IMG/VR virus record: IMGVR_UViG_3300030331_005816
Span: 1-64,000 of that record
Strand: one strand, 5' to 3'
DNA length: 64,000 nt
Source: a virus
A program made the translations under genes and the position numbers. The notes beneath the pieces were generated by a model that was not told where the DNA came from, made no database searches, and saw nothing but the letters and a program-made list of their open reading frames with translations. Positions 6,778-28,040 of this stretch are shown here, piece by piece. Each line of letters begins with the position of its first letter. The stretch's first letter is position 1.

Positions 6778-7122
6778 ATGAAATTAAATACATTATCAGG
6801 CATATCAACTATCACTAAATTAAAAGATCATAATAAAATTAATGATCAGTTATTAACCTGCATTAACAGTTTAAAATTAGAAGATCTGATAGCTATTAAA
6901 TTAGAATTATCATCACAACATGTTAATAATAGATTATATGGCCTTGACATCTGGCGAAGAACACCTTACATTGTTAGAGATGGAATACTAAAGTTTTCTC
7001 TTTCAGTTGCAAAATCAAAAAAGGATGCTGCCAGATTCTTGGGGCTAACATATGTTGAATATATGCGACATCTTAAAAATTTTAATACTAGAGAATATTT
7101 TGAGGACAAAGAAAATGTTTAA
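6778..7122 (+). CDS. Fis-like HTH regulator (putative)
   Basis: A 114-residue protein whose C-terminal segment (about residues 80-101, KSKKDAARFLGLTYVEYMRHLK) reads like a Fis/NtrC-type helix-turn-helix: an AARFLG helix, a short turn and a recognition helix. The N-terminal region is helical (LKLEDLIAIKLELSSQHVNN). Similar small proteins are encoded by marine T4-like phages. It is the first gene after a strong promoter with tandem operators, which suggests an autoregulated DNA-binding protein. Its last eight bases overlap the start of the thioredoxin-fold gene. Confidence 0.7.
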   Translation: MKLNTLSGISTITKLKDHNKINDQLLTCINSLKLEDLIAIKLELSSQHVNNRLYGLDIWRRTPYIVRDGILKFSLSVAKSKKDAARFLGLTYVEYMRHLKNFNTREYFEDKENV

Positions 7123-7714
7123 ATTATTACCACTCGTCACAGCAATTGCCTGCGGCCCAAGCAAACTAGAGACGACAGAAAATAGAGATACACAGACATC
7201 TGAGCCACTGCCGGTTCCTACAGAATTTGGAGTTATATCCGGCCCCGACTGCAGCCAGACGGGCCCGGGCGATTATGCATGCAATGTGGTGCTTTATGAT
7301 CAAGATAAAATTCCATGGCAACTTTATGATCATAAGGGCAAAGTAGTTATTTTAGATTTTTCAGCTAGCTGGTGCCCACCGTGTCAAAACTCTGGTATGT
7401 TTGTACAACCTATACAAGATGATTATGAAGATGATGTTATATTTGCTACTCTTTTAATTGATGGTTACACTTTTGGAATAGAACCTACAGATGATGAAAT
7501 AACTGATTGGGCTGATAGCCATAATATTACAACTGCCCCAGTATTATATGCTAGTAGAGATTTAGTATTTGATCCAACTGGTACAGGTATAGAGGGATAT
7601 GTTATTGAAGGCTTCCCAACTTACATATATATCGGCAGAGATGGTATAATAGCTGAAGGTCATACAGGATTCAGTGAGGGATATGTTAGAACTATTATTG
7701 AAAGGTTAAGATAA
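7115..7714 (+). CDS. TlpA/ResA-like thioredoxin-fold lipoprotein
   Basis: The 199-residue protein starts at ATG 7115, with GAGGAC upstream and an overlap with the preceding stop; a longer frame to 7052 has no such support. The start gives MFKLLPLVTAIACGPSK, a short lipoprotein signal with the lipobox-like AIAC (Cys13 as lipidation site). A linker follows, then a thioredoxin fold with the redox motif SWCPPC near residue 88, preceded by VVILDFSA, and a cis-proline-like segment GFPTYIYIGRDG near 170. This is the layout of TlpA/ResA/DsbE proteins that act outside the cytoplasmic membrane. A phage-encoded periplasmic redox lipoprotein is unusual; it could support folding of disulfide-bonded proteins or alter the host envelope. 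Confidence 0.85.
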   Translation: MFKLLPLVTAIACGPSKLETTENRDTQTSEPLPVPTEFGVISGPDCSQTGPGDYACNVVLYDQDKIPWQLYDHKGKVVILDFSASWCPPCQNSGMFVQPIQDDYEDDVIFATLLIDGYTFGIEPTDDEITDWADSHNITTAPVLYASRDLVFDPTGTGIEGYVIEGFPTYIYIGRDGIIAEGHTGFSEGYVRTIIERLR

Positions 7715-7923
7715 TGTGGAAAGTATATAAGTATGATGGAAATTACATTCAAGGTGAGCTTATAAGCAAACACACATCTGAAAATGCTGCTCTCAAGGCA
7801 GCTAAAAAGAGTATTGGTTATACTTTTTGTGAAAAAAAGAAAGTTAATAAAGAAATAAGAATTTGGCTTGATAGTGTAAATTATGCACCACTGGGTGTAA
7901 TTATAAAAAATACAAGGGGATGA
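7714..7923 (+). CDS. Small basic protein overlapping tmRNA 5' end
   Basis: A 69-residue basic protein of unknown function that begins in a TAATG junction with the lipoprotein gene. The pattern WKVYKYDGNYIQGELISKH then a helix (ENAALKAAKKSIG) suggests a small alpha/beta fold. Its last eight bases, including the TGA, lie inside the 5' acceptor strand of the tmRNA (which begins at 7916), so maturation of the tmRNA would cut the mRNA at the end of this gene. Confidence 0.6.
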   Translation: MWKVYKYDGNYIQGELISKHTSENAALKAAKKSIGYTFCEKKKVNKEIRIWLDSVNYAPLGVIIKNTRG

Positions 7924-8257
7924 TTAGGTTTCGACAGGGCAAAAGAAAAGGAATAGTGCAAGCAGGTTAGATACGACCTTAACAGTTCAAATAATTTAGT
8001 TGCAAACAACAACTTACACTTCGACGAAACAGCTCGTTTAGCTGCTTAATCGGGAGGCTGATTAGAGCCTTCTATCCAATCTAATCAACACAACAGATAA
8101 GTTGCAAAAATCAAAACATTTATCATTAGTTTGATGGGCAATGATATCTTATTTCCATCTATCTTTGTCAGTTTATGATATAGAAACTGAATAAGCTTGT
8201 GAATGACTACAATTGGAATTGTTTTGGACGCGGGTTCGACTCCCGCCATCTCCACCA
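7916..8257 (+). ncRNA. ssrA: tmRNA (one-piece, CCA encoded)
   Basis: The tRNA-like ends are clear: GGGGATG (7916-7922) pairs with CATCTCC (8247-8253), followed by A and an encoded CCA (8255-8257); the T-arm is GCGGG-TTCGACT-CCCGC (8230-8246). The early segment GATTAGGTTTCGAC matches the conserved tmRNA 5' region. The resume codon is GCA at 8002-8004, preceded by AATAATTTAGTT, much like the E. coli resume region. The tag reads ANNNLHFDETARLAA and stops at 8047-8049, ending in the LAA degron recognised by ClpXP-type proteases. Sequence from 8050 to 8210 would form pseudoknots. Length is 342 nt. tmRNA rescues stalled ribosomes and tags the incomplete protein; phage copies are rare. Confidence 0.95.
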
Positions 8258-10859: not shown

Positions 10860-10889
10860 TTGTTCTACTTATAAAAGGAGGGTAGTGTT

Positions 10890-10928
10890 ATGGAAAAATG
10901 TGATTGCTGTAACTGTGAATGTTGCTAA
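10890..10928 (+). CDS. 12-residue cysteine-rich micropeptide
   Basis: An ATG at 10890, preceded by a strong ribosome-binding sequence (AAAGGAGGGT), opens a 12-codon frame encoding MEKCDCCNCECC. Half of the residues are cysteine, in the spacing CxCCxCxCC. This may be a metal- or thiol-binding peptide of metallothionein character, or a leader peptide whose translation depends on charged tRNA-Cys and controls the hairpins that follow. Nothing excludes a chance frame except the quality of the ribosome-binding site and the composition, which are striking together. Confidence 0.5.
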   Translation: MEKCDCCNCECC

Positions 10929-10940
10929 ATAAATGCGCTG

Positions 10941-10993
10941 TTCTGCTCGCTTTATAAGCAGAAGGGGGTTGCCCGACCCAAACGTAGGCAGAG
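10941..10993 (+). ncRNA. Structured leader with mutually exclusive hairpins (candidate)
   Basis: Two hairpins can form in series: TTCTGCT (10941-10947) with AGCAGAA (10957-10963), seven perfect pairs, and GGGTT (10966-10970) with GACCC (10975-10979) around a GCCC loop. The segment GGCAGA (10987-10992) can instead pair with TCTGCT (10942-10947), which would disrupt the first hairpin. This lies between the Cys-rich peptide and an intrinsic terminator, an arrangement like an attenuator. I could not match it to a named riboswitch class. Confidence 0.4.
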
Positions 10994-10997
10994 GTTT

Positions 10998-11034
10998 CCG
11001 GTTATCCTAGTTCTAGACAGAAAACCGGTTTTTT
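10998..11034 (+). terminator. Intrinsic terminator
   Basis: CCGGTT (10998-11003) pairs with AACCGG (11023-11028) around a 19-base loop that itself contains a short CTA/TAG pairing, and is followed directly by six T (11029-11034). It ends transcription after the hypothetical protein and Cys-rich peptide, or conditionally in an attenuation scheme. Confidence 0.7.
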
Positions 11035-11054
11035 ATATTTGACATATATACTTT

Positions 11055-11204
11055 ATGGAAGAAGTTGCAGAATTAACTATTTTAGCTATGGTTATGTTTG
11101 TAGCTGCTTTTTTTTGCTATCGTGTTTTATTGATTCCAAATGCTTCCATTAAATCGATTGAAAAAATACATGAAGTAGAAGATATGTTGTCTGGTAATGA
11201 GTAA
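11055..11204 (+). CDS. Small membrane protein (49 aa)
   Basis: A 49-residue frame starting at ATG 11055. Residues 7-29 form one hydrophobic segment (LTILAMVMFVAAFFCYRVLL) and the rest is a charged cytoplasmic-type tail (IEKIHEVEDMLSGNE). It sits between the terminator and tRNA-Thr and ends one base before the tRNA. No strong ribosome-binding sequence precedes it. The single clean membrane helix supports a real gene; function unknown. Confidence 0.5.
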   Translation: MEEVAELTILAMVMFVAAFFCYRVLLIPNASIKSIEKIHEVEDMLSGNE

Positions 11205-11205
11205 T

Positions 11206-11281
11206 GCTCGCATAGCTCAATTGGTAGAGCAACGGTTTTGTAAACCGTAGGTTGTGGGTTCAAGTCCCTCTGCGAGCACCA
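11206..11281 (+). tRNA. tRNA-Thr (TGT)
   Basis: A 76-base cloverleaf: acceptor GCTCGCA (11206-11212) pairs with TGCGAGC (11271-11277), discriminator A and an encoded CCA (11279-11281). The anticodon stem ACGGT/ACCGT encloses TTTGTAA with anticodon TGT at 11239-11241, reading ACA, a codon used heavily by the AT-rich genes here. The T-loop is TTCAAGT. Confidence 0.95.
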
Positions 11282-14492: not shown

Positions 14493-15776
14493 ATGAAAAA
14501 AACAAAAATTCTAACCTTGTCTGATCACCCGCTATCACCATCGGGTGTTGGTACACAAACAAGGTATTTTATCGAAGCACTTTTAAAAACTGGTAGATAT
14601 CAGTTTGTTTGCTTGGGTGGAGCAATGAAACACAATGATTATACCCCTACAAATGTTGAACCTTATGGGGAAGATTGGCAAATTATACCAGTTGATACAT
14701 ACGGAACACCTGATATTATTCGCTCTGTTTTACAAAACGAACGGCCAGATGTTTTGTGGTTCATGACAGATCCGCGGTTTTACGAGTGGTTGTGGGAAAT
14801 GGACAACGAAATTAGATCACTCGTGCCAATGGTATATTACCATGTGTGGGATAACTTTCCAGCACCTGAGTTTAACGGTAAGTGGTATCGTTCTACAGAC
14901 GAAATCGTAGCAATTTCAAAAGTAACATATGGTTGTGTTAAAGAAGTAGTGCCTGAAGCTTCATTAAATTATATCCCACATGCAGTTCCAACACAATTTT
15001 TTCACCCTGCTACAAGTAACGATGAAAAAAATAAAGCTGCAACTTTAAGAAATAATATAATCAATACATCAACTGAATTTAATAATCCAAAAAAGAAGAT
15101 ATTTTTCTGGAACAGTAGAAATGCAAGAAGAAAGTTAAGTGGTACACTTATTTGGTGGTTTAAAGAATTACTAGACGAAATCGGGCACGATAAAGCCTCG
15201 CTACTTATGCATACAGATGCTAGGGATCCACATGGCCAAGATCTGCCTCATATTATGGAAAGATTGGGTTTAACCGATGGTCAAGTGTTGTTATCAACGA
15301 ATAAAGTTAGCCCAGAAGAACTGGCACATATGTATCGTGCAGCCGACTACACTATTGGCATTAGCGATGCTGAAGGTTTTGGTTTATCAACACTTGAATC
15401 ATTAACATGCGGAACTCCAATTATTGCAAACATGACAGGCGGCCTTCAAGAGCAGGTAACTGATGGTACAAACTGGTTTGGCTGGGGCATTGAGCCTGTA
15501 AGTAAAACTGTCATTGGTTCTTTGCAAGTACCATATATCTATGAAGATAGAATCTCACAAAAAGATTTTAATGCAACAATTAAGAAAGCAATAAAATTAA
15601 GCAAACCAAAATATCAAAAGCTTTCAAAAATGTGCTTACAACATGTTAAGGATAATTATAGTTTTGAAAAATTTGAACAATCTTGGATTAATTTAATGGA
15701 TGAAATTGTAGAGAAACATGGTTCTTGGGAAACTAGAAAAAATTATGATCGTTGGACACTATTGGAGGTAGCATAA
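14493..15776 (+). CDS. GT-B glycosyltransferase (GT4-like)
   Basis: A 427-residue GT-B enzyme. The N-terminal Rossmann domain opens with SDHPLSPSGVGTQTRYFIEAL, and the C-terminal domain has the family signature ISDAEGFGLSTLESLTCGTPIIANMTGG (E-x7-E nucleotide-sugar site) near residues 285-315. A start codon with a GAGGAAT ribosome site follows the nuclease gene by seven bases. GT4 enzymes transfer a sugar from a nucleotide donor with retention; donor and acceptor here are unknown. It opens the glycan cassette. Confidence 0.9.
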   Translation: MKKTKILTLSDHPLSPSGVGTQTRYFIEALLKTGRYQFVCLGGAMKHNDYTPTNVEPYGEDWQIIPVDTYGTPDIIRSVLQNERPDVLWFMTDPRFYEWLWEMDNEIRSLVPMVYYHVWDNFPAPEFNGKWYRSTDEIVAISKVTYGCVKEVVPEASLNYIPHAVPTQFFHPATSNDEKNKAATLRNNIINTSTEFNNPKKKIFFWNSRNARRKLSGTLIWWFKELLDEIGHDKASLLMHTDARDPHGQDLPHIMERLGLTDGQVLLSTNKVSPEELAHMYRAADYTIGISDAEGFGLSTLESLTCGTPIIANMTGGLQEQVTDGTNWFGWGIEPVSKTVIGSLQVPYIYEDRISQKDFNATIKKAIKLSKPKYQKLSKMCLQHVKDNYSFEKFEQSWINLMDEIVEKHGSWETRKNYDRWTLLEVA

Positions 15777-17029
15777 TGCTTCAAAAAGTAATTTTAACAG
15801 CACCGGTATTAACTCGTTCAGGCTATGGTGAACAATCAAGATTCGCCTTAAGAGCACTTAGGTCGCGACCGGATTTATTTGATATTTATATTCATCCTTT
15901 AGAATGGGGTAAAACTTCTTGGCTTAGTGAAGATAATGAGGAAAGAAAATGGATTGATCAAACAATCCAAAAAACAATTGATTTTCTTCAAGTAAATAAC
16001 AGTGCAGATAATAACTTATTTGATGTATCACTACAGGTCACTATTCCAAATGAGTGGCAAAATATTGCTAATCACAATGTTGGTTATACTGCTGGCATTG
16101 AAACAACAAGGGTAGCACACGAATGGTTACAAAAAGGTAACGAAATGGATAGTATTATTGTTGTTTCTGAACACTCTAAGAATGTATATAGAAACACAGT
16201 TTATGATGCACACAATCAGCAAACAGGCGAAGACATTACATTATCATTGAACACTCAAATTTCTACAGTCAATTACCCTGTAAAAACATATGATAATTTA
16301 GAAGCTCTTGAGCTTAACTTAAAGCATGATTTTAATTTTGTTACCGTTGCACAAATGGGCCCAAGAAAAAACATCGATAATACCATTAATTGGTTTTTAC
16401 AAGAGTTCCACGACGATGAAGTTGGGTTAGTGGTAAAAACAAATGTTGCTAAAAATTGTCAAGTTGATAAAGAAATAGTTCACGGCTCATTAATGAGACT
16501 TATTAGAGCCCATGATGCCACTAATGAAAATAGAAAATGTAAACTTTATTTGCTTCACGGTGACTTAACTGACCAAGAAATGCACGAACTATATTTAAAC
16601 CCAAAAATTAAAGCGACTGTTTGTTTAACACACGGTGAAGGATTTGGTTTACCAATGTTTGAATCAGCTTACATGGGTGTTCCGGTTGTTGCTACAGATT
16701 GGTCGGGTCAGTTAGATTTCCTTTGTGATTCGGAAAAAAGAACAAAATTCTACAATGTTGGCTTTGATTTACAACCAGTTCCTGATCAAATATTGTGGGA
16801 TGGTGTAATTGTTAAGGGTTCAATGTGGGCAGTTCCAAGAGAAAACTCTGCAAAGTATAACATGAGGCTGTGCTATGATGAAGTTACCGAGGGGACTAAC
16901 AGTGCATGCGAATATTCAAAAGAACTTTGTGAGAGGTTTTCAGAAGATAAGATGTATGCAGCTTTTATTGAAGCTATGAATTTGCCAATTGTACAAACTC
17001 CAGAATCAGAATTGGTAGAATTTGAATGA
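15776..17029 (+). CDS. GT-B glycosyltransferase (GT4-like)
   Basis: A 417-residue glycosyltransferase that starts in the TAATG junction at 15776, with GGAGGT just upstream; an in-frame ATG at 15752 is less likely. The N-terminus has TRSGYGEQSRFALRAL, the middle IIVVSEHSKNVY, and the C-terminal domain the donor site THGEGFGLPMFESAYMGVPVVATDWSG. It belongs to the same broad family as its upstream neighbour and likely acts on the same glycan. Its stop overlaps the next start (ATGA). Confidence 0.9.
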   Translation: MLQKVILTAPVLTRSGYGEQSRFALRALRSRPDLFDIYIHPLEWGKTSWLSEDNEERKWIDQTIQKTIDFLQVNNSADNNLFDVSLQVTIPNEWQNIANHNVGYTAGIETTRVAHEWLQKGNEMDSIIVVSEHSKNVYRNTVYDAHNQQTGEDITLSLNTQISTVNYPVKTYDNLEALELNLKHDFNFVTVAQMGPRKNIDNTINWFLQEFHDDEVGLVVKTNVAKNCQVDKEIVHGSLMRLIRAHDATNENRKCKLYLLHGDLTDQEMHELYLNPKIKATVCLTHGEGFGLPMFESAYMGVPVVATDWSGQLDFLCDSEKRTKFYNVGFDLQPVPDQILWDGVIVKGSMWAVPRENSAKYNMRLCYDEVTEGTNSACEYSKELCERFSEDKMYAAFIEAMNLPIVQTPESELVEFE

Positions 17030-18639
17030 GTAAGTTAGTTTATGTCAGCGATTTTTTTGTTGAGCACATCGCCGGCGGTGCTGAGATAAACGATTCTATA
17101 TTATTAGAGAATCTATCAAAAGATATAAAAGTAGTCAAGTTTTTATCTCGTGAATTTACTAGCAAACATGTAAATTTATATCTTAAAAGTGGCTTTAAGT
17201 TTTTAATATCAAATTTTGCTACTCTTGATGTTAGCACAATGCAAGAGTTAGTAAATAATCCCAAGTGTTATTCCATAATCGAACACGACCACAAGTATTT
17301 AAAACATAGAAATCCATCAATATATAAAGATATGCTTGCACCACCGCAAGATATTATAAACAGAATACTGTATGCTAATGCCGCCTGTGTATTCGCACAG
17401 TCTAATATACACAAACAAGTTATTCAAAGAAACTTAAAAATTTCTAATGTCATAAATCTTGGCATGAGTTTGTGGTCAGATGAGCAATTATCGATAATTG
17501 AAAAAAACTACAGCGATGTAAAAAAACCGGGCTGTTCTATAGTAAACAGTCAAAATCCAACTAAAAATACAGCAGGAACAATTCAGTTCTGTGAAACCAA
17601 TAATATTGAATATAATTTAATTGGTTCTCCCTCTTACGAGGAGTTTATAAAACAACTATCTGAATACGAAAGATATGTTTACATGCCAATTGTTCTTGAA
17701 ACCTTTAACAGAGTTATAATTGAAGCTAGAATGTTGGGATGCAAAATCTCATCTACTAATTTAAATGGATGCTTTTCTGAAGATTGGTTTTCAAAGTACA
17801 AGGGCAAAGAACTAATTGAATATGTGAGACAGCAGCGACAAAGAGTTGTTAATGAAGTTGCTAGCGGTATATTTGATGATTCAGATACCAAAGAAAAATC
17901 AGACATTACAGTTATTTTGAACGGGTATAGAAGGCCATATAATCTTAAAATGCAAGTTGATGCATTAAGAAGCCAAACAAACCCTCCAAAGCAAATTTGG
18001 CTGTGGATTAATGATCATGAAGACAATCATGGTTTTGATTTTGAATCTATTGGAGTAGATAGAATATTTCATAATGATTATAATTGGAAGTTCTATGGCC
18101 GCTTTGCAGCAGCACTTTTAGCAGACACCGAGTATATTGCAATCTATGATGATGATACTGTGCCCGGCAAAAGGTGGCATGAGAATTGCTTAAAAACAAT
18201 GAAGACTCATGAGGGTATTCTTGGTTCTGCCGGCATCATACTCAATGGTTCACGATATGTGCAACACGACAGGTGCGGCTGGCCAACACAAAATTCAACC
18301 ACAACTGAAGTTGATTTAGTTGGCCATGCTTGGTTTTTTAAACGAGAGTGGTTACGATATCTCTGGCAAGAAAAACCTGTCACTTGGGATAATGGAGAAG
18401 ATATCCAATTTGCTTTTATGGCAAAAATCCATGGGGGTATACCAACATATTGTCCGCCACATCCGCCCGAAGACATTGATTTGCATGGTTCTATACTTGG
18501 GAATGAATTAGGTATAGACAATAAAGCAACATCAACCAATTCTGCTGTTTCGCATCAACAATTTTTCTCCGAAAGAGATATGTGTGTGCAAACAGGACTA
18601 CAAAAAGGCTGGAAAACAGTCAATAATATAACATTATGA
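17026..18639 (+). CDS. Two-domain glycosyltransferase (GT-B plus GT-A)
   Basis: A 537-residue protein with two glycosyltransferase-like halves. Residues 1-255 look like a GT-B chain (YVSDFFVEHIAGGAEINDS, and a donor-site-like YMPIVLETFNRVIIEARMLGC around 225). Residues 285-500 look like a GT-A (GT2) domain: DITVILNGYRRPYNLKMQVD, a YIAIYDDDTVPG metal-binding motif and a later WDNGEDIQFAFMAKI. Family GT2 enzymes bind the donor through the D-D-D motif. The first half lacks an obvious catalytic acidic motif, so it may be structural or an acceptor-binding copy. Both ends overlap neighbours in ATGA junctions. Confidence 0.82.
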   Translation: MSKLVYVSDFFVEHIAGGAEINDSILLENLSKDIKVVKFLSREFTSKHVNLYLKSGFKFLISNFATLDVSTMQELVNNPKCYSIIEHDHKYLKHRNPSIYKDMLAPPQDIINRILYANAACVFAQSNIHKQVIQRNLKISNVINLGMSLWSDEQLSIIEKNYSDVKKPGCSIVNSQNPTKNTAGTIQFCETNNIEYNLIGSPSYEEFIKQLSEYERYVYMPIVLETFNRVIIEARMLGCKISSTNLNGCFSEDWFSKYKGKELIEYVRQQRQRVVNEVASGIFDDSDTKEKSDITVILNGYRRPYNLKMQVDALRSQTNPPKQIWLWINDHEDNHGFDFESIGVDRIFHNDYNWKFYGRFAAALLADTEYIAIYDDDTVPGKRWHENCLKTMKTHEGILGSAGIILNGSRYVQHDRCGWPTQNSTTTEVDLVGHAWFFKREWLRYLWQEKPVTWDNGEDIQFAFMAKIHGGIPTYCPPHPPEDIDLHGSILGNELGIDNKATSTNSAVSHQQFFSERDMCVQTGLQKGWKTVNNITL

Positions 18640-19622
18640 TACTGATTAGTTTTGGAACTCGACCTGAGTTTATTAAAATAAAGCCTCTTATCGAGGCATT
18701 TAAAGATAGGATACCTTTCAAGTTACTTTTTACTGGTCAACATGTTGATCTGTTATCCGATGTAGAGGGCGACATTCACAAGCTGACGATCGAAGATGGG
18801 TCAAATAGGCTTGATTCAATTGTCTCCTCAATGATGAACAACGATGCTATTTTTGAAGGTGTGGAAGCAGTGTTGGTTCAGGGTGATACAACATCAGTTT
18901 TTGCTGTTGCATTGGCCGCATTTCATAGAAGAATAAAAATTATACACCTTGAGGCTGGATTAAGAACATTCAACAAAGATCATCCATACCCTGAAGAGTT
19001 TAATCGTCGTGCGGTCTCTGTCATGGCTGATATCCATCTATCGCCAACAGAACTTTGCACTGAAAACCTTAATAAAGAAAGAGTCGATGGAAAGATTTTT
19101 ACAGTCGGCAATACTGTACTGGATAATTTGGTAGATATACAACCCGAATACACAAACAAAGTTGTCATTACAATGCACCGAAGAGAAAACCATCACATTA
19201 TACCAGAATGGTTTGCTGCATTTGATAGACTTGCACTTGAAAATCCACAGTATGAATTTATTATTCCTTTGCACCCTAATCCAAATGTTCAAAAGCACAA
19301 AGACTTGTTAAAGCATGTCAAAGTTGTTGATCCTATGCAATATGCAGAGTTTATTAAGTTACTATCACAAGCTCGTTTAGTTATTACAGATAGTGGTGGA
19401 CTGCAAGAAGAATCTTCGTTCTTTAAGAAAAAGTGTATAGTGTGTAGACAGGCTACAGAAAGAGTTGAAGGTATGGGAACATTTGCATTTATGTCATCAC
19501 CAGATAAAGTAGAGAGCGATTTTTATTCTATGATTGATGATTATATTCCCGATGATACATGTCCTTATGGAGATGGTCACAGTGCAGAAAGAATTACAAA
19601 CATTCTTTTAGAGGAATTATGA
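18636..19622 (+). CDS. wecB: UDP-GlcNAc 2-epimerase family protein
   Basis: A 328-residue protein of the non-hydrolysing UDP-N-acetylglucosamine 2-epimerase family (WecB/MnaA), with the family's LISFGTRPEFIKIKPLI start, QGDTTSVFA, HLEAGLRTF, PYPEEFNRR, MHRRENH and TDSGGLQEE-type motifs. The usual length is about 370-380 residues, so this copy is somewhat short. The enzyme makes UDP-ManNAc from UDP-GlcNAc, or a related C2 epimer. It is cytoplasmic and would supply an activated amino sugar to the nearby glycosyltransferases. It starts in an ATGA overlap. Confidence 0.9.
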   Translation: MILISFGTRPEFIKIKPLIEAFKDRIPFKLLFTGQHVDLLSDVEGDIHKLTIEDGSNRLDSIVSSMMNNDAIFEGVEAVLVQGDTTSVFAVALAAFHRRIKIIHLEAGLRTFNKDHPYPEEFNRRAVSVMADIHLSPTELCTENLNKERVDGKIFTVGNTVLDNLVDIQPEYTNKVVITMHRRENHHIIPEWFAAFDRLALENPQYEFIIPLHPNPNVQKHKDLLKHVKVVDPMQYAEFIKLLSQARLVITDSGGLQEESSFFKKKCIVCRQATERVEGMGTFAFMSSPDKVESDFYSMIDDYIPDDTCPYGDGHSAERITNILLEEL

Positions 19623-20422
19623 AAGACTTTACCAATGCCTTTAATACTCTGCTGCACAAGCTAGAAAATAAAGAAAATTTTGCTTTTACTAGGTTTTCTG
19701 ATGGTGAGCTTTTTATCTTGCAAAATAAAACAGTCATACTAGCCGAGGACCATTATGTAACCGGTGATGTTAAGGGGCCTAATGTTTACACTAAAGAAGA
19801 ACAAAAAGAATTCTTACCTGAACAACATGGCTTTTTTCGTGACAAGCTGATGGAATGCTATCTTCACAATCAAGATAATTTTTACAAAGGCATATGCACA
19901 GGAACCGATCCTCATGTTGGAAATGAAAATTTTAAATGGATGATAGAGCAACACGGTGGCGATCACGAGAATTTAACATTTTCTAATCTTTTAATAAATG
20001 CAAATTATAAAAGATTCATTGAAGAAATGGTACCCATGTTGGTTGACAGAAATGTAATTTATGTTGCAAATGAGAATGCAAATATATCAAAACTACCGTT
20101 TGATGTAGAAAAGCATTTCATTGTTGGTTCAAATTGTATGATAAATGATTATAATTTAGCTGAAGAAATAAAAAAATATATTGACGATAACAACCTGAAA
20201 GATTATATTGTTCTATGTTCTGCTGCTAGTTTAAGCAATGTCGTGACTTACGAGTGTTTTAAGGATAATCCAAATAATACATTTCTTGATATTGGAAGCT
20301 GTTTAAATCCATTGCTAGATCTAGAAGGGTGGAAATATACCAGAGGTTATCTAACCAGCTATTGGCTTAATTCTGATAGCCCATTTGGCACACAGATAGA
20401 TGTATGGCAGAGTACAGATTAG
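19619..20422 (+). CDS. GT-D-fold glycosyltransferase-like protein
   Basis: A 267-residue protein that starts at ATG 19619 in an ATGA overlap with the epimerase; a longer frame from 19559 would overlap the epimerase gene by more than 60 bases. The N-terminal FAFTRFSDGELFIL (near residues 21-34) corresponds to the R-F-G-D-G-E motif of the GT-D (DUF1792, SP_1767-like) glycosyltransferases, which use it for metal and donor binding. The rest has the alternating helix/strand content expected for a Rossmann-type domain (DYIVLCSAASLSNVVTYE). Its 3' end overlaps the next gene by 19 bases. Confidence 0.72.
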   Translation: MKDFTNAFNTLLHKLENKENFAFTRFSDGELFILQNKTVILAEDHYVTGDVKGPNVYTKEEQKEFLPEQHGFFRDKLMECYLHNQDNFYKGICTGTDPHVGNENFKWMIEQHGGDHENLTFSNLLINANYKRFIEEMVPMLVDRNVIYVANENANISKLPFDVEKHFIVGSNCMINDYNLAEEIKKYIDDNNLKDYIVLCSAASLSNVVTYECFKDNPNNTFLDIGSCLNPLLDLEGWKYTRGYLTSYWLNSDSPFGTQIDVWQSTD

Positions 20423-20805
20423 TAAATAACAACCCTTCTTACTGGGAATTTATTCGTGAGCTAAGGACCATGGAAGGTGTTCGAGAAGGATTTATTTCAC
20501 AAACTGAAATTACTCCCATTGAGCAAGCTACTTATATGCTAAAATATAATTCTAACTATTGGATATGTTTGGATGACAAAACACCTGCAGGTTATGTTGG
20601 AGTAATAGACGATGATATTAGGGTAGCAACTCACCCAGACTATCAAGGCAAAGGTGTTGGAACATTTATGATTAATGAAATTATGAAACTAATACCAACA
20701 GCGATAGCAAGAGTTAAATTAGATAATGAAGCTAGTGTAAAACTATTTGAAAGATGTGGCTTTAAAAAGAAATACTATATTTTGGAAAGAGATAATGAGA
20801 CATAA
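20404..20805 (+). CDS. GNAT N-acetyltransferase
   Basis: A 133-residue single-domain GNAT with the acetyl-CoA site VATHPDYQGKGVGTFMI (Q-x-G-x-G/A, about residues 79-95) and the C-terminal strand-helix RVKLDNEASVKLFERCGF typical of the family. Within this cassette it probably acetylates an amino sugar, as in many sugar-nucleotide biosynthesis operons where a GNAT follows an aminotransferase. The aminotransferase-like gene overlaps its end by 11 bases. Confidence 0.9.
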   Translation: MAEYRLVNNNPSYWEFIRELRTMEGVREGFISQTEITPIEQATYMLKYNSNYWICLDDKTPAGYVGVIDDDIRVATHPDYQGKGVGTFMINEIMKLIPTAIARVKLDNEASVKLFERCGFKKKYYILERDNET

Positions 20806-21409
20806 CCCATATAAAATTGTAAAAATGTTTGAAGAGACCGTAGCTGACTATTGTGGCTCTAAGTATGCAGTATCGACTGACAATTGCACTGATGCTCTTC
20901 TTTTATGTTGTGAGTACTTGAGGGTGAAGGAAGTTGTAATCCCGGCTAAAACATACCTGTCGGTCCCGCAATCTATCATGCATGCGGGCGGAACTGTAAA
21001 GTTTAAAGACTACAGGTGGAAAGGTATATATCAACTTGAGCCATATCCAATTTATGATGCAGCTAAAAGATTTACAAGTGATATGTATATTCCTGACTCT
21101 TTTATGTGTTTATCGTTCCATATCAAAAAGCATTTGAAGATTGGAAAGGGCGGTATGATTCTTACCGACGATGCTGATGCTGCAGCATGGTTTAGAAAAG
21201 GTCGTTATGAAGGCCGCGGTGAAGTTATGTATCATGAAGATAACATACAGATTAACGGATGGAATGCATACATGACTCCTGAGCAAGCAGCCCGCGGCTT
21301 GATGTTAATGCAAAACTACCCAGATCATATGGAAGATTTGCCTGAAGAACCGTTCTACAGAGATTTGAGAGAATTTGACTTGTTTAAGGATGTAGAGGTT
21401 GTAGAATGA
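20795..21409 (+). CDS. Short DegT/DnrJ/EryC1-type aminotransferase
   Basis: A 204-residue PLP protein of the sugar aminotransferase family. It starts at ATG 20795 (ribosome site GGAAAGAG), not at the earlier in-frame ATG 20747. Visible motifs are YAVSTDNCTDALLL (PLP-phosphate site), VVIPAKTYLSVPQSIMHAGG, and SFHIKKHLKIGKGGMILTDD with the lysine that should form the Schiff base. The usual family length is about 370 residues, so the C-terminal domain is largely missing; it may work as a reduced enzyme, bind a partner, or be degenerate. It would transfer an amino group to a keto-sugar nucleotide, the natural substrate for the GNAT upstream. Confidence 0.8.
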   Translation: MRHNPYKIVKMFEETVADYCGSKYAVSTDNCTDALLLCCEYLRVKEVVIPAKTYLSVPQSIMHAGGTVKFKDYRWKGIYQLEPYPIYDAAKRFTSDMYIPDSFMCLSFHIKKHLKIGKGGMILTDDADAAAWFRKGRYEGRGEVMYHEDNIQINGWNAYMTPEQAARGLMLMQNYPDHMEDLPEEPFYRDLREFDLFKDVEVVE

Positions 21410-22236
21410 AGATTGCACTGTGCTTACATGGCTACTTTGCTAATGCAGAGGGGTATGAAGAATCTGTTGAGGCTCACAAATACTTAAAAAGAAAAGTACT
21501 TGATGGCAATGATGTAGATGTTTTTATACACAGTTGGGATCTTGAAAACGAAAAAAAAGTGTTATCGTTATATAATCCAAAAAAGTATAATTTTGAAAAG
21601 CAATTAGATTTTAAACAAGAATTAAAAAAAATTGATATTAACAATGATGAATATAAAAGCTCATATGGTAATACTGTATTTAGAACATTGAGTTTTTTAT
21701 ATTCAAGAATGATGGCCGTGAAAATCAAAAGTGATTATGAAGAAGAAAAAAAATTCAAATATGATTGTGTAATATTAGCAAGATTTGATATATCAAGAAG
21801 AGGATTAAAACATATACAAACACATTATGTTTCACGAATGAATTTTGATCCGAAATTAGATATGGATTTTGTTTATTCTGCATATTGGGATCAATTAAAT
21901 CATGGATATGCAGACCACTGGTTCTATTCATGTTCTGAAAACATTGACACTGTTGCAAATTTATATTATGATGTCTTTGAGTATTATCAATCAAATAGTG
22001 ATTATGTAAAATCGGTCACTGAAGGGTGGCCTGAAAGCAATGCTGAACATGAATTTTCCAATGAGTACATGAAACCTAAAAAATATAAAGCCAAAAAATT
22101 AATATTTTGGGAGAAGTCAAGTTGTATTGACAATCATAAATTATACAAATGGCATTTTATGAAAACTGGTTTACATCAAAAGTCTAAATTTGTTGATATT
22201 ACAACTGATACTGATAAGCCAAGGATTATGAATTAA
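21406..22236 (+). CDS. Putative glycosyltransferase, marine-phage type
   Basis: A 276-residue protein beginning MKIALCLHGYF and continuing DVDVFIHSWD, a pattern I recall from uncharacterised glycosyltransferase-like proteins in phage and bacterial polysaccharide clusters. A central CVILARFDISRRGLKHI may be the metal-binding R-x-D motif of GT-A-type enzymes. A position within the cassette and the ATGA overlap with the aminotransferase gene support a glycan role. No decisive family motif, hence moderate confidence. Confidence 0.6.
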   Translation: MKIALCLHGYFANAEGYEESVEAHKYLKRKVLDGNDVDVFIHSWDLENEKKVLSLYNPKKYNFEKQLDFKQELKKIDINNDEYKSSYGNTVFRTLSFLYSRMMAVKIKSDYEEEKKFKYDCVILARFDISRRGLKHIQTHYVSRMNFDPKLDMDFVYSAYWDQLNHGYADHWFYSCSENIDTVANLYYDVFEYYQSNSDYVKSVTEGWPESNAEHEFSNEYMKPKKYKAKKLIFWEKSSCIDNHKLYKWHFMKTGLHQKSKFVDITTDTDKPRIMN

Positions 22237-22239
22237 TCT

Positions 22240-22965
22240 ATGAATAAAGAAACCGCCATTATTATGTACAGTCACAGCAGTTACTCTGATGTATGGGGTA
22301 TGTTTATGGGACAAATTGATAAGTATTTTTCTAATGATGTAAAAAAATATGTATTTGTTGATGATGATAAGGGTCTTATTGACAATAATTGGAACATAGT
22401 TTTATATGATGATTCTATGTCGTATGATGTTAGATTTAGTACATGTTTAGAAAGTGTAAAAGAGCAGTATTGTATCCTTCACCATGAAGATATGCCCTTA
22501 ATAACTAAACCAGATATTGAAGAATTGCAACGATGTCACGGAATATTAAAAAATGAACCAGAGTTAGATTATATAAAGCTGATTAAGGGTGGAGAAGTTA
22601 GAGATATACCATATAAAGAATACAAAAACTTATATGACATACCACACAATTCTAAATGCATATTTGCCGTGCAGCCGACCATATGGAAAACTAATAAATT
22701 AAAAATTGTTTACAATAACACAAAAACAAATCATATTAGAGAATTTGAACCCAAAAGCCAAACTACTTGTGTTGAAAATTCGATACATGGAGCTTATTAT
22801 TTCAATTCTGAAGTTGATTTGAAAAGAGGCAGTGATCATTATAATTCATCAATTTATCCATATGTTGCCACGGCCATAGTAAAGGGAAGATGGAATTTAG
22901 CTGAGTATTATGTTGAGATATCAAACTTGGCTAGAGAATATAAAGTTAATCTTGGAGATAGATAA
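22240..22965 (+). CDS. Putative glycosyltransferase-like protein
   Basis: A 241-residue protein with TAIIMYSHSSYSDVWGMF at the start, KKYVFVDDDKGL (possible D-x-D-type acidic motif), and YCILHHEDMPLITKPDI around residues 85-102, where a His-His-Glu-Asp stretch recalls the acidic site of GT-A-like enzymes in phage glycan clusters. It follows the preceding gene by three bases and its TAA overlaps the ATG of the HAD phosphatase gene. The function is inferred mainly from context. Confidence 0.55.
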   Translation: MNKETAIIMYSHSSYSDVWGMFMGQIDKYFSNDVKKYVFVDDDKGLIDNNWNIVLYDDSMSYDVRFSTCLESVKEQYCILHHEDMPLITKPDIEELQRCHGILKNEPELDYIKLIKGGEVRDIPYKEYKNLYDIPHNSKCIFAVQPTIWKTNKLKIVYNNTKTNHIREFEPKSQTTCVENSIHGAYYFNSEVDLKRGSDHYNSSIYPYVATAIVKGRWNLAEYYVEISNLAREYKVNLGDR

Positions 22966-23489
22966 TGATTAAATTAGTGATATTAGATGTTGATGGTGTA
23001 ATGACAGATGGTCGCAAATACTATGATCACACTGGCATGCCCGTTGCAAAGACTTATTGTGACAAAGATTTCACTGCTATTAAAAGACTTCGCGGAGCAG
23101 GAGTGAAAGTTTGTATTCTGTCAGGAGATGATTTTGTCAACAAAGCTATGGCTCATAATAGAAATATAGATTTTTATTCTGCTAGAGGTAAAGATAAGGC
23201 TTCTTTTATTCCTCACTTTATTGACAATTATGATGTTGATGCGGAAGATATGGCATACATCGGCGATGACTTATTTGATAAAAGTGTGATGGAAGCTGTT
23301 GGTCATGCATTTTGCCCGGCAGATGCCTGTGCAGATATCGTTGAGTTATGCGGACCCTCAAACACATTGCCACAAAATGGTGGCTGCAATGTAGTTGCTG
23401 GCATGGTTAATACCATGCTGAAGAGAGGCTTGATACCAGATGCCACAATGAAACAAATTGAAGAGTTAGATAAAAACGAGAGGTTTTAG
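22965..23489 (+). CDS. KdsC-like HAD phosphatase
   Basis: A 174-residue HAD-superfamily protein of the KdsC/NeuA-C type. The nucleophile motif is LDVDGVMTDG (Asp8 and Asp10), with motif II SGDD around 52 and motif IV MAYIGDDLFD at about 93, and the compact size lacks a cap domain, as in KDO-8-phosphate phosphatase. In this operon it sits directly before a sugar kinase and close to a nucleotidyltransferase, isomerase and transketolase, so it may remove a phosphate in sugar-nucleotide biosynthesis. It begins in a TAATG overlap and its TAG overlaps the next GTG start. Confidence 0.88.
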   Translation: MIKLVILDVDGVMTDGRKYYDHTGMPVAKTYCDKDFTAIKRLRGAGVKVCILSGDDFVNKAMAHNRNIDFYSARGKDKASFIPHFIDNYDVDAEDMAYIGDDLFDKSVMEAVGHAFCPADACADIVELCGPSNTLPQNGGCNVVAGMVNTMLKRGLIPDATMKQIEELDKNERF

Positions 23490-24370
23490 TGAGCTTTGAT
23501 TTAACAGTCTACGGTAATCTAATATTAGATAATACATTCTGTGTAGAACAATATGCTCATGAAGAATCAAATATTTGTACAGCACGGCACATGTCTCCGG
23601 GTGCTTCTGCAAATGTGGTGAGTGCAATTAGCAGGCTTGATTCTGCTTTGAGTGTTAATATCAGTTCAATAATTGGCGATGACACTGCCGGACGGTATAT
23701 AGAGAAATGGTTTTTAAATTTTAAAAAACTTAACTCAATTAACTTAAATTTAAATTTAGAAAAAAGCTATCAAAACACATCTGAGGCAGTGATTATTTCA
23801 GACCTGACTAATAAGTCCAGAAGCAGCATTGTAAATTGGGGTGCCTGTCAAACACTAAGAAACTTAAAAAACTTTAACTCTAAGTGGTCTCATATACTTT
23901 ATCTTGACAAGCTACCTAATTTAGATTTAAACAGTTTAAAAAAATTATCAGAAGAAAGTATAATATCTGTAGACTTGTGTTCCTCTAATCAAGATTTAGA
24001 AACAAGAGAGACGATGATTTCCATGTTGCCATATATTGATTATGTATTTGCTTCGTTTGAAGAGGGTTGTTGTTTAGCACAAGAAAATAATCCTTATGAT
24101 GCATCTCGCTTTATTGCTAAAAAAACAAGAGGCTGGTGTATTCTACACTCTCCAGATGGTAGTTACATATCAGAAGGCAGCCATCAAACAACAAAAAAAT
24201 ACAATGTCGCTGACAAAGTAACAGGGCCGGTCAATGTTTTAGGTGCTGGCGACAACCTTGCTACTGCTTTTATTGTTGACCAGATTAAAAGACAAAGCGA
24301 AGTAAGCGAGTCAATTAAGTTTGCACAAACACAAGCAACCGAATATATTAAAAATAACCAAAAGGAATAA
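23489..24370 (+). CDS. PfkB-family sugar kinase
   Basis: A 293-residue ribokinase/PfkB-type kinase. It starts at GTG 23489 in a TAGTG junction with a GAGAGG site upstream. The C-terminal motif GPVNVLGAGDNLATAF carries the catalytic GAGD (Asp255), and the N-terminal part has the SPGASANVVSAISRL substrate-binding pattern. It is closest in style to the N-terminal kinase domain of HldE/RfaE. With the phosphatase and nucleotidyltransferase next to it, a role in phosphorylating a sugar phosphate before activation is likely; the substrate is not known. Confidence 0.87.
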   Translation: MSFDLTVYGNLILDNTFCVEQYAHEESNICTARHMSPGASANVVSAISRLDSALSVNISSIIGDDTAGRYIEKWFLNFKKLNSINLNLNLEKSYQNTSEAVIISDLTNKSRSSIVNWGACQTLRNLKNFNSKWSHILYLDKLPNLDLNSLKKLSEESIISVDLCSSNQDLETRETMISMLPYIDYVFASFEEGCCLAQENNPYDASRFIAKKTRGWCILHSPDGSYISEGSHQTTKKYNVADKVTGPVNVLGAGDNLATAFIVDQIKRQSEVSESIKFAQTQATEYIKNNQKE

Positions 24371-24371
24371 A

Positions 24372-25532
24372 ATGTCAAAAAAATATAATTTACTCTTGCC
24401 AATTGCTGGAAGAGCCCAAAGATTTTTAGATGCTGGCTATACAATGCCTAAGCCACTTATTATGTCTAAAGATAAACACATCATTGATTGGTCTATGAGT
24501 TCAATTAATACAGAAGAATGCAATATGATTTTTGCTGTGAGATTGGAACATATCAACAACTTTTCAATTGATGATATCTTAAGAGAAAAGTTTGGGGATG
24601 ACATTACTATAGTTGTTATTGACAGGGTGACAGATGGCTCTGTTTCTACTTGCTTGTTAGCTAAAGAACATATTAATAATGACATGCCACTTATAATCTA
24701 CACTCCAGATGTATATTTTGAAGATCAATTTAATCCCGCAGACATCCCTGAAGAATTGGATGGTTATCTGGTAACATTCAAGGCTAACAGTCCTGCTCAT
24801 AGTTACATTGAATTAAATGAAAATAACATGGCTGTTCGTACCGCTGAAAAAGATGTTATCAGCACAAATGCCGCCGTTGGTGTTTACTGCTATAAGAGTG
24901 GCCGCATGTTTGTTGATTATGCTGAAGAGATGATTGAAAAGAATATTAGAACTAAAGGTGAATTTTATATCTGTCCAATGTATAACTTAATGATTAGAGA
25001 TGGTGCACAGGTTGGCATTCACGAAGCTAAAAAGATGCATGTCTTAGGAACTCCCGCAGAGCTTGAGTTTTTCGTGGATCATGTAACAACTAGATTTGGT
25101 AATAAGCCGGTTGCCCTTTGTTGCGATCATTCTGGTTTTAGAATGAAAGAGATAGCAAAAGAAAGACTTACTAAGAATGGAGTTGAGTACATTGACTTTG
25201 GGACATATGTTGATAAAGATTGCGATTACAACGAATATGTTACTCAGGCTGTCCGAGCAGTGCATGAAAAAACTTGCGATTTTGTTATGGGATTTTGTAG
25301 AACAGGACAAGGTGTAAATATCCTTGCTAATCATTTAGATGGTATTCGTTCTGCATTGGTCATCGACGAATATACTGCTGAATATGCAATTAGGCATAAC
25401 TGTGTCAACTTTTTTGCTGTTCCTGAAAAATATGTATCTGAAGATTGTTTAGATAAGATGATTAAGATATGGAAGGAAACCACTTTTGATGGGGGCCGTC
25501 ACATGACAAGAATGAAGAAGACAATGGGCTAA
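24372..25532 (+). CDS. Sugar nucleotidyltransferase-RpiB isomerase fusion
   Basis: A 386-residue fusion. It starts at ATG 24372 after AAAGGAATAAA; the earlier in-frame ATG at 24321 overlaps the kinase gene. Residues 1-235 form an NTP-transferase domain (LLLPIAGRAQRF, then MPKPLIM, and IYTPDVYFED for metal binding), as in GlmU/RfbA-type enzymes. Residues about 242-386 are a LacAB/RpiB isomerase domain: CCDHSGFRMKEIAKE, IDFGTYVDKDCDYNEYV, MGFCRTGQGVNILAN with the active Cys, and FDGGRHMTRM. RpiB enzymes interconvert aldose and ketose phosphates. The fusion joins isomerisation and nucleotide activation in one chain; I know of no characterised example. Confidence 0.88.
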   Translation: MSKKYNLLLPIAGRAQRFLDAGYTMPKPLIMSKDKHIIDWSMSSINTEECNMIFAVRLEHINNFSIDDILREKFGDDITIVVIDRVTDGSVSTCLLAKEHINNDMPLIIYTPDVYFEDQFNPADIPEELDGYLVTFKANSPAHSYIELNENNMAVRTAEKDVISTNAAVGVYCYKSGRMFVDYAEEMIEKNIRTKGEFYICPMYNLMIRDGAQVGIHEAKKMHVLGTPAELEFFVDHVTTRFGNKPVALCCDHSGFRMKEIAKERLTKNGVEYIDFGTYVDKDCDYNEYVTQAVRAVHEKTCDFVMGFCRTGQGVNILANHLDGIRSALVIDEYTAEYAIRHNCVNFFAVPEKYVSEDCLDKMIKIWKETTFDGGRHMTRMKKTMG

Positions 25533-25533
25533 A

Positions 25534-26181
25534 ATGAAAGATATACAATTACATAAGCGATTATTAAAACTGTTATATGAGCACAACGAGGAACATGTTG
25601 GTAGTTGTTTTTCTTGCATTGATATCATAGATTCTATTTTTGCAACCAAAAGCGAAGATGACATTTTCATTTTATCAAATGGTCATGCAGCATATGCTCT
25701 ATATTCTGTTCTAGAAAAATACTACCCTCACATCGATGCTGATGCCCTTGTAGAAAAGCATGGCGGTCACCCTAACCGAGATGAGGAAAACCACATCTAC
25801 TGTTCAACTGGTAGCCTTGGTATGGGGATTATGATGGGTGTTGGTAGAGCCTTGGCTAAACCTCATAGAACAGTGCATGTTATGATTAGCGATGGCGAGT
25901 CCACTGAAGGTTCAGTTTGGGAAGCTCTTAGATACATTGAGGAAAAGAATGTAGACAACATTGAAGTTTATGTTAATGCTAACGGATATGCTTGTTATGA
26001 CGAAATGGATGTTGATTATTTAGAAAGAAGATGTAAGGCATTTTTACCAAGAATACATTTTCATCGCACTGAACAAGAAACATTTCCTTTCTCATTTTTA
26101 TGGGGCCTTGATGCACACTATATTAAGATTAATGATGAGCAATATCAAGAAGCCTTGGAGGTCTTAGAAAATGAGTGTTAG
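25534..26181 (+). CDS. Transketolase N-terminal subunit-like protein
   Basis: A 215-residue protein homologous to the TPP-binding (PP) half of transketolase. Motifs: HVGSCFSCIDIIDSIF, ILSNGHAAYALYSVL, CSTGSLGMGIMMGVG, and the TPP/metal site SDGESTEGSVWEAL (residues 119-132) followed after about 26 residues by N150. The first residue of the canonical GDG is Ser here. A typical split N-subunit is near 270 residues, so this is compact. It sits between the isomerase fusion and the C-terminal subunit gene, which overlaps its end by 11 bases. Its partner and role are a two-carbon transfer between sugar phosphates. Confidence 0.87.
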   Translation: MKDIQLHKRLLKLLYEHNEEHVGSCFSCIDIIDSIFATKSEDDIFILSNGHAAYALYSVLEKYYPHIDADALVEKHGGHPNRDEENHIYCSTGSLGMGIMMGVGRALAKPHRTVHVMISDGESTEGSVWEALRYIEEKNVDNIEVYVNANGYACYDEMDVDYLERRCKAFLPRIHFHRTEQETFPFSFLWGLDAHYIKINDEQYQEALEVLENEC

Positions 26182-26650
26182 AAAAGTATTCGTTGAATTA
26201 CTTCACAAAGAAATGAGAAAAAACGAGGATATTGTTTTTGTAATTGGTGATCTAGGCTATGGTCATTTTGATGCAATTCGAGAAGAATTTCCTGATCGTG
26301 TATTTAATCCCGGTGCTGCTGAACAACTAATGCTTGGTATGGCTTGTGGCTTAGCCATGGATGGTAAGATACCAGTATGCTATTCTATGACTCCCTTTGT
26401 GTTATACAGACCGTTTGAAATTATTAGAACTTATATCGATTACGAAAAGATTCCTGTTATCTTAGCTGGGGCTGGTAGAGATAAAGATTATGCTTCTGCT
26501 GGCTGGTCACACTGGGCAACAGACGATAAGAAGCACCTTAGTGGATTTTATAATATTGCGAAGCTATGGCCTGATGAAGACACTCTTAGGCTAGAATTTG
26601 ACAAAATTATAAATACTAAGACACCATACTATGTAAACCTGTCGAGATAA
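26171..26650 (+). CDS. Transketolase Pyr-domain subunit
   Basis: A 159-residue protein matching the pyrimidine-binding half of transketolase or DXS-type enzymes: VFVIGDLGYG, FNPGAAEQLMLGMACGLAMDGKIPV, with Glu51 as the conserved residue that activates TPP, and YSMTPFVLYRPFEIIRTYI. The split C-subunit is usually about 300 residues and includes a third (transketolase-C) domain; here only the Pyr domain is present. The gene overlaps the N-subunit gene by 11 bases, so the pair should form one heterodimer. Together they would shuffle two-carbon units, as for making a ketose phosphate precursor. Confidence 0.87.
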   Translation: MSVRKVFVELLHKEMRKNEDIVFVIGDLGYGHFDAIREEFPDRVFNPGAAEQLMLGMACGLAMDGKIPVCYSMTPFVLYRPFEIIRTYIDYEKIPVILAGAGRDKDYASAGWSHWATDDKKHLSGFYNIAKLWPDEDTLRLEFDKIINTKTPYYVNLSR

Positions 26651-26652
26651 TT

Positions 26653-27420
26653 ATGAGAGAGAATTTTACTGTTTTAGTTCAAGGACCGTTAGAGCAAAAT
26701 ACAATTAAAGCAATTGAATGCTATTCTATGGACTATAAAGTTGTTGTGTCAACATGGCAAGAAGAAACAGAACTACATGATCATGTTCAACATCTTTGCA
26801 AGTTAAACAATAATATTAAATTTGTAAATGAAAAAGCCCCTACAGTTATAGGTCCACCGGGCTTAGCTTGTGTGTTAAGAAATACAACTTTTCATTATGC
26901 AATTACTGGTTTGCAAAACGGTTTAAAATTTGTAGATACAGAATATGTTATTAGAGTTAGAACTGACGAGTTTTTTGATTCTCTTGACTATCTTGCAAAC
27001 CTTTCTTTACAAAACAGTGAAAAATTAGTGTTTGGTAACATATTTGCTCGTAAATGGTCTGATGTTAAATATCATATAGGGGATCACATTTATGCTAGTA
27101 AAACTCATATTCTCAAAAGTGCGATTGACAAACTTTACAAAATACAAATTAAAGAAACACCTTTTGAAAACTGGGCTGAACAAGGCCCATATGCCGCTGA
27201 AACAGTCTTAGCCCATGCATTCTTAGCAGCAAAAAATTCTAATCAAGCTTTTTGGCATGATCTCAATACTTTTAAAAACAACTTTTTAGTTTTTGATATT
27301 AATAACTTTAGTGATTATAGAGTTCGTCATGGCCATGCTAATATAACATGGATTAAAAATGATAGCCCATTTAACAATCAAAGATTCTTTGTAAAAGAAA
27401 TGTCGGATATGGTTACATAA
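26653..27420 (+). CDS. WavE-like glycosyltransferase
   Basis: A 255-residue protein starting FTVLVQGPLEQNTIKAIE and VVVSTWQEETELHDHV, as in WavE lipopolysaccharide-synthesis proteins, with IRVRTDEFFDSLDYL as the R-x-D/E acidic motif near residue 98-112. Family members act in the cytoplasm on outer-core sugars of LPS; the enzyme activity has not been fully defined. It is placed directly after the transketolase pair and precedes the sulfotransferase gene by one base. Confidence 0.78.
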   Translation: MRENFTVLVQGPLEQNTIKAIECYSMDYKVVVSTWQEETELHDHVQHLCKLNNNIKFVNEKAPTVIGPPGLACVLRNTTFHYAITGLQNGLKFVDTEYVIRVRTDEFFDSLDYLANLSLQNSEKLVFGNIFARKWSDVKYHIGDHIYASKTHILKSAIDKLYKIQIKETPFENWAEQGPYAAETVLAHAFLAAKNSNQAFWHDLNTFKNNFLVFDINNFSDYRVRHGHANITWIKNDSPFNNQRFFVKEMSDMVT

Positions 27421-27421
27421 C

Positions 27422-28039: not shown

Positions 28040-28040
28040 T

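Follow-up and report, generated by a model that had tools for sequence, protein, structure and literature searches.

Metallothioneins, among them the short copper form of fungi, combine Cys-x-Cys and Cys-Cys motifs with small polar spacers and lack aromatic residues. The tRNA region of phage T4 encodes small stable RNAs of unknown function. Other phage RNAs, ROOL and GOLLD, are found near tRNA islands and form homo-oligomers, and palindrome swapping in symmetric kissing loops served as evidence of homo-oligomerization for OLE (loop L9.3) and GOLLD (loop L21a) (Nature 2025, PMC12286853). In mycobacteria, polycysteine short open reading frames (ORFs) act as attenuators, according to the account of Canestrari et al. 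2020 given in PMC9031893. Here we describe a locus on a 64-kb stretch of viral DNA (the window; positions 1 to 64,000 of IMGVR_UViG_3300030331_005816, a 73.7-kb uncultivated virus record), where the gene of a 12-residue micropeptide, MEKCDCCNCECC, is followed by a conserved structured RNA. Both parts work like known kinds of molecules, yet fit no family tested. We favor, with a probability of roughly two in three, a reading in which the peptide, resembling a mini-metallothionein, and the RNA, acting in trans and located much like ROOL/GOLLD, are modules independent of each other.

A family of cysteine-rich phage micropeptides

The micropeptide gene extends from its ATG at 10890 to the end of the stop codon at 10928 on the plus strand, as do the RNA elements, the membrane-protein ORF, and the tRNA-Thr described below, and is preceded by the Shine-Dalgarno (SD) sequence AGGAGGG (10876-10882). 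The six cysteines in twelve residues and the excellent ribosome site pointed out in a preliminary description of this locus can thus be read directly. Searching for SD-preceded ORFs of 10-30 amino acids (aa) with at least six and at least 40% cysteines returned one in the window, compared with none in 60 first-order-Markov shuffles of its 64 kb. The pattern CDCCNCECC matched two viral contigs only, L001 (MKECDCCNCECC) and L002 (MKDCDCCNCECC), the former being 92% identical to the window over exactly the 39-nt peptide gene and the latter 87% identical over 52 nt comprising peptide gene and SD. None of the proteins encoded at these two loci matches the window. As the peptide gene is the sole similarity, we conclude that it moved as a unit between otherwise unrelated phages.

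MEKCDCCNCECC belongs to a group of free-standing, Cys-rich micropeptides of uncultivated phages, with lengths of 12-24 aa and one 43-aa form. Loci of close PhoH relatives and further scans yielded MEKCECCGCVAPCQCECCCK, MKNCDKCGCSCPCECECCCK, MNCCDKCECSTSCNCECCCS, MGNCDKCGCSCPCSCECC, MCGCDNCKCEKDCGCDCCCG, MNCKCCECCNCDCC, MSKCKCCECCSCTCCG, MELKCDCDCCMCECCG, MTNCKCCKCCDCECCDE, the 43-aa form, and others. Strong SD sites precede nearly all members. The cysteine content (6 in 12, 9-10 in 20 residues) and the CxC/CC motifs are kept across the family, which is devoid of aromatic residues apart from one Tyr in the 43-aa form. By its residues the 12-mer looks like the 20-aa form minus the middle and the last two positions, and the more distant of these short peptides may share ancestry with that of the window or have originated separately. 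The pattern C.CC.CC.C.CC also fits the complement of Ala/Ser-rich DNA, and only SD-led mini-ORFs were kept among the matches listed. Matches of the 20-aa pattern in genome contigs, mostly Cys-rich tails of long GC-rich frames, were judged unrelated. In 50 PhoH-bearing contigs without a peptide beside PhoH, the pattern scan found none elsewhere in the records. An ORF of Faecalicatena (L167) resembles the peptide family but has a different ending.

Within the 20-aa branch (16 distinct sequences), synonymous divergence (pS) amounts to 0.622 and nonsynonymous divergence (pN) to 0.119, yielding a pN/pS of 0.19. TGT and TGC interchange at all Cys positions but the first, and Lys3, Gly8, Pro12, and acidic residues or Asn at positions 5 and 16 are largely retained. 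The low pN/pS, the codon swaps at cysteines, and the retained non-Cys residues show that selection acts on the protein, and this selection is purifying. Comparison with relatives, suggested in the preliminary description, accordingly revealed that both the spacing and the non-Cys residues are conserved in this branch. Four longer members of the family gave no match in Pfam, the 12-mer being below the length for such a scan, and one 20-aa member gave none in PDB; tblastn of a 20-aa peptide against 50,697 phage records likewise returned no match, although the low-complexity filter may hide one. Open-licence papers contained nothing relevant on phage metallothioneins or Cys micropeptides.

MEKCDCCNCECC is probably translated as a free-standing micropeptide, and its Cys-x-Cys/Cys-Cys pattern would form a cytosolic thiolate cluster binding a soft metal, namely Zn, Cu(I), or Cd. 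Such a cluster appears likeliest because of the conserved CxC/CC motifs, the acidic, Gly, and Lys spacers, and the lack of aromatics. Like a minimal metallothionein, the peptide may buffer or divert metal during infection. The micropeptides share with metallothioneins the very high cysteine content, the CxC/CC motifs, the small polar spacers, and the absence of aromatics, and differ from them in having only 12-24 residues and in giving no Pfam or PDB match for the members tested. The same sequence facts would suit a peptide that holds an Fe-S or other cofactor, serves as a redox or disulfide substrate, or binds a host protein via its thiols, and both the thioredoxin-domain protein encoded at 7052-7714 and a thioredoxin-like ORF noticed by eye near the 43-aa form could be taken in its favor. 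However, with 9-10 cysteines in 20 residues and numerous CxC/CC motifs, the peptides look more like thiolate clusters than like holders of a single-site cofactor, and the thioredoxin neighborhood consists of individual sightings; we therefore consider these roles rather unlikely, while giving them real weight.

Two further observations concern the surroundings of such peptides. Lipoprotein-like ORFs follow a micropeptide directly in L001 (1300-1575) and L139 (4935-5246), probably within a lysis region, and these ORFs are alike despite the two different peptide families. The thioredoxin-domain protein of the window is itself lipoprotein-like and lies near the peptide/RNA region, and the thioredoxin-like ORF near the 43-aa form was seen in L097 and L098.

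A pseudoknotted RNA beside tRNA genes

Positions 10935-11028 encode a conserved non-coding RNA. In its first part (PK1), stem S1 pairs GCG (10935-10937) with CGC (10948-10950) and stem S2 pairs TTCTGCT (10941-10947) with AGCAGAA (10957-10963); in the second (PK2), S1 pairs GGG (10964-10966) with CCC (10977-10979) and S2 pairs TTGCC (10969-10973) with GGCAG (10987-10991). As S1 and S2 interleave in each pair, the element comprises two tandem H-type pseudoknots, followed by a hairpin, P3, of CCGGTT (10998-11003) and AACCGG (11023-11028). TTCTGCT/AGCAGAA, which the preliminary description had taken as a first hairpin, its second (GGG/CCC) element, and CCGGTT/AACCGG with six T residues behind it are all present; read there as alternative hairpins, they form one conserved RNA in relatives rather than switching stems.

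A covariance model (CM) built from 26 sequences matched the window element, itself a training sequence, with 124 bits (E 7e-32) and relatives down to 41 bits (E 8e-9), and 60 distinct RNA versions were found. These were aligned by MAFFT without structure for covariation analysis, in which each cell counts sequences and not evolutionary events. The proposed pairs are formed in 91.2% of cells, compared with 32-47% when the partners were slid against each other, and cells changed on both sides number 186 versus 69 in shuffles, none of 500 shuffles being as high. Compensatory stem changes, which the preliminary description had proposed to look for, are therefore present among the 60 distinct homologues. 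PK1 S1 occurs as GCG/CGC, GTG/CAC, CCG/CGG, and ACG/CGT, and is extended to TGCGCG/CGCGCA in L017 and to GTGCGCG/CGCGCAC in L184. PK1 S2 is paired in 99.2% of cells with both sides changed in five of six counted pairs, including a class change from TTCTGCT/AGCAGAA to TATCGT/ACGATA. Variants of PK2 S1 are GGG/CCC, CGT/ACG, GGT/ACC, and GGA/TCC, those of PK2 S2 (99.3% paired) CTGCC/GGCAG, TTGCC/GGCAA, TCGCC/GGCGA, and CCGCC/GGCGG, and those of P3 include CCGGTT/AACCGG, CGACTT/AAGTCG, and GTGGTTT/AAACCAC. Single-sequence folding of the window element is no better than that of shuffles (z 0.07 and -0.66), so the case for the structure rests on comparison.

Searching Rfam 15 with the window and the local region at lax limits identified no family for this element at gathering score (a chance SNORA72 match had E 3.5), and blastn of two RNA versions against the 50,697 phage records found no match. 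Open-licence papers yielded nothing relevant on pseudoknotted RNA in phage tRNA clusters. The earlier remark that nothing of either kind is described for phage thus stood, for the sequences tested, across Rfam, Pfam, PDB, the phage records, and the open-licence literature searched. A shrunken version at L231:32-117 (minus strand), in which a large part of the second pseudoknot appears to be missing, lies behind peptide MKNCNECACPCPCQCECCCG.

In examples of loci that lack the peptide, the RNA begins right at the stop codon of the gene before it or a few bases farther on. A gene for tRNA-Asn, -Thr, or -Gly begins within a few bases of P3 in 43 of the 60 distinct versions, and a tRNA adjoins the RNA in 49 of 70 matches; 32 of the 43 tRNA-abutted versions are without a T run of 5. 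Since a tRNA abuts P3 in most versions, P3 does not act as a terminator in general; in most relatives, tRNA processing probably generates the 3' end. The window genome has no abutting tRNA and carries a T6 tract (11029-11034), where P3/T6 may serve as a terminator; a simple terminator scan does not call this site, owing to the 19-nt loop of P3. Of the terminator previously placed at 10998-11034, hairpin and T6 therefore stand, whereas a tRNA follows the hairpin directly in most relatives. T tracts showed a weak association with the absence of an adjacent tRNA (p 0.035 by Mann-Whitney; for runs of 5 or more, Fisher p 0.13), and no such link is claimed. Four of the tRNAs directly after the RNA (L019:3474-3569, L029:2480-2575, L041:3355-3451, and L102:7913-8004) have a class-II body with a long, Leu/Ser-like variable arm, a GTT (Asn) anticodon, and U at position 37; they could decode Asn codons as Leu or Ser, or might not decode at all.

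The P3 loop of the window contains the palindrome TCTAGA (11012-11017), a putative kissing-loop dimer site. Perfect palindromes of at least 6 nt are present in 33 of 39 distinct P3 loops, compared with a mean of 8.4 and a maximum of 18 in 2000 composition shuffles, and at least nine different hexamers occupy the same place, among them TCTAGA, CCATGG, CATATG, TCGCGA, CCTAGG, TCATGA, CCGCGG, GACGTC, and, in L058, TGCGCA. The loops are related and not independent sequences, yet so many different palindromes would be hard to obtain otherwise. In L016 the palindrome is imperfect, TCATGG with G-U closure. As in the evidence for OLE and GOLLD, palindromes are swapped at one loop, which here points to a kissing-loop homodimer deduced from sequence.

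We propose that a tRNA operon gives rise to this element (about 10935-11028) as a stable non-coding RNA. In most relatives, processing at the neighboring tRNA would generate its 3' end, in the window genome probably P3/T6 termination, and its palindromic P3 loops would kiss to form a homodimer acting in trans. Because the RNA sits beside tRNAs, its role would be sought first in how the infected cell translates or in its tRNA biology. Like ROOL and GOLLD, it is phage-encoded beside tRNAs, contains pseudoknots, and has no known protein partner; unlike them, it folds differently, matches none of the Rfam families by sequence or CM, and is ~95 nt long where many GOLLD members exceed 800 nt. With the stable RNAs of T4 it shares small size and a place in a phage tRNA cluster, and differs from them in having no blastn match in the 50,697 phage records.

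A cis-acting RNA, riboswitch-like or a processing element, could instead control the transcript it is part of or how the adjoining tRNA matures, in line with the fixed place just 5' of tRNAs or a small membrane gene and with the P3 hairpin and T tract of some genomes. The downstream gene varies, however, between Asn, Thr, and Gly tRNAs and protein genes, it is not obvious what a cis element would gain from swapping its palindrome, and no Rfam riboswitch matched, rendering cis action improbable. Still less credible are the palindromes as DNA-level sites of a dimeric protein or methylase: several do equal common restriction sites, and DNA palindromes bind dimers, but a sequence-specific protein would not allow changing sequences at one structural place, and the remainder of the element covaries as RNA.

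Separability of peptide and RNA

Among 64 distinct RNA loci, 18 have a peptide directly upstream and 46 have none. Conversely, peptides without the RNA lie directly before a transfer-messenger RNA (tmRNA; L127, L134, L247, and L249), before a tRNA (L106), and, in other families, before protein genes. Peptide and RNA are hence two separable modules. Of the two readings in the preliminary description, that of a metal-binding peptide with a structured RNA is broadly right, as the peptide is conserved as a protein and the RNA as a structure, metal binding staying putative.

Several findings count against our overall interpretation. In the RNA-bearing clade, any peptide that occurs sits immediately 5' of the RNA, and the two may have a joint role there. 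Next to the peptides inspected, no gene for metal handling was seen. PK2 S1, with 3 bp and 80.9% pairing, is the weakest stem. Finally, six of the 39 distinct loops are without a 6-nt palindrome, most of them being TCCTTGGA, which could dimerize if two U-U mismatches are accommodated, or else fold into a small hairpin.

The other reading was an attenuator in which ribosomes stalling at Cys codons, when charged tRNA-Cys runs short, would switch hairpins and terminator and thereby control the membrane-protein gene downstream. The order of the parts does fit, with six Cys codons first, then hairpins, and a hairpin with a T tail last, and precedent comes from the mycobacterial leaders, which are similarly short and rich in Cys codons. 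The present locus differs from these in lacking a constant downstream operon, in the separability of peptide and RNA, in its conserved spacing, and in a strong SD where they have a leaderless start. The segment said to compete with the first stem exists, as GCAGA (10988-10992) can pair with TCTGC of that stem, but this pairing is lost in relatives: the first stem TATCGT/ACGATA abolishes it, whereas GGCAG stays paired in PK2 and both pseudoknots are kept. An attenuator needs peptide, switching stems, and terminator as a unit, and since leader peptide and terminator stems are not inherited together, the mutually exclusive stems are not conserved (TATCGT cannot pair with GGCAG), the variable downstream element is usually a tRNA following P3 at once, and the conserved non-Cys residues and spacing are nothing that an attenuator needs, each link fails and we regard tRNA-Cys attenuation as unsupported and highly improbable.

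As a more far-reaching possibility, we tentatively suggest that the RNA represents a new class in phages, an RNA-only homodimer of ~95 nt that contains tandem pseudoknots and is set free from tRNA operons. The gene beside it, moving horizontally, would encode one of the smallest gene-encoded metal-thiolate peptides known, and where the two co-occur they would be co-expressed from one stable-RNA transcript.

Genome neighborhood and biological meaning

The small membrane-protein gene reported after the hairpins is present as a 49-aa ORF (11055-11204), with no PHROG match and no significant Pfam match. It is treated here as a neighbor of the two modules and is followed by tRNA-Thr(TGT) (11206-11281). 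PhoH, baseplate-wedge, HNH, and thioredoxin-domain matches were found among the window proteins, the nearest PhoH relative among the 50,697 phage records being 39% identical, and the window encodes two tRNAs and one tmRNA. The latter (7916-8257) is a phage-encoded one-piece tmRNA with the tag ANNNLHFDETARLAA, tags in relatives starting with ANNN; four further phages have a Cys micropeptide located 2-12 nt upstream of the tmRNA. A long ORF run at 15752-30156 resembles, by eye, glycosyltransferase and sugar-nucleotide genes, including epimerase, UDP-GlcNAc epimerase, nucleotidyltransferase, and PfkB-like kinase types.

Genes of 12 codons fall below annotation cut-offs, and a family occurring in many phages would be missed in this way. 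If the peptides bind metal, they would be a case of phages managing the metal or thiol pool of the cell with the smallest possible protein. The RNA is a compact candidate to join the few phage-borne RNAs near tRNA islands that probably self-assemble, and at ~95 nt it is far easier to synthesize, probe, and solve than GOLLD or ROOL; owing to this small size, the reason for phages to carry such RNAs beside tRNAs can be tested directly.
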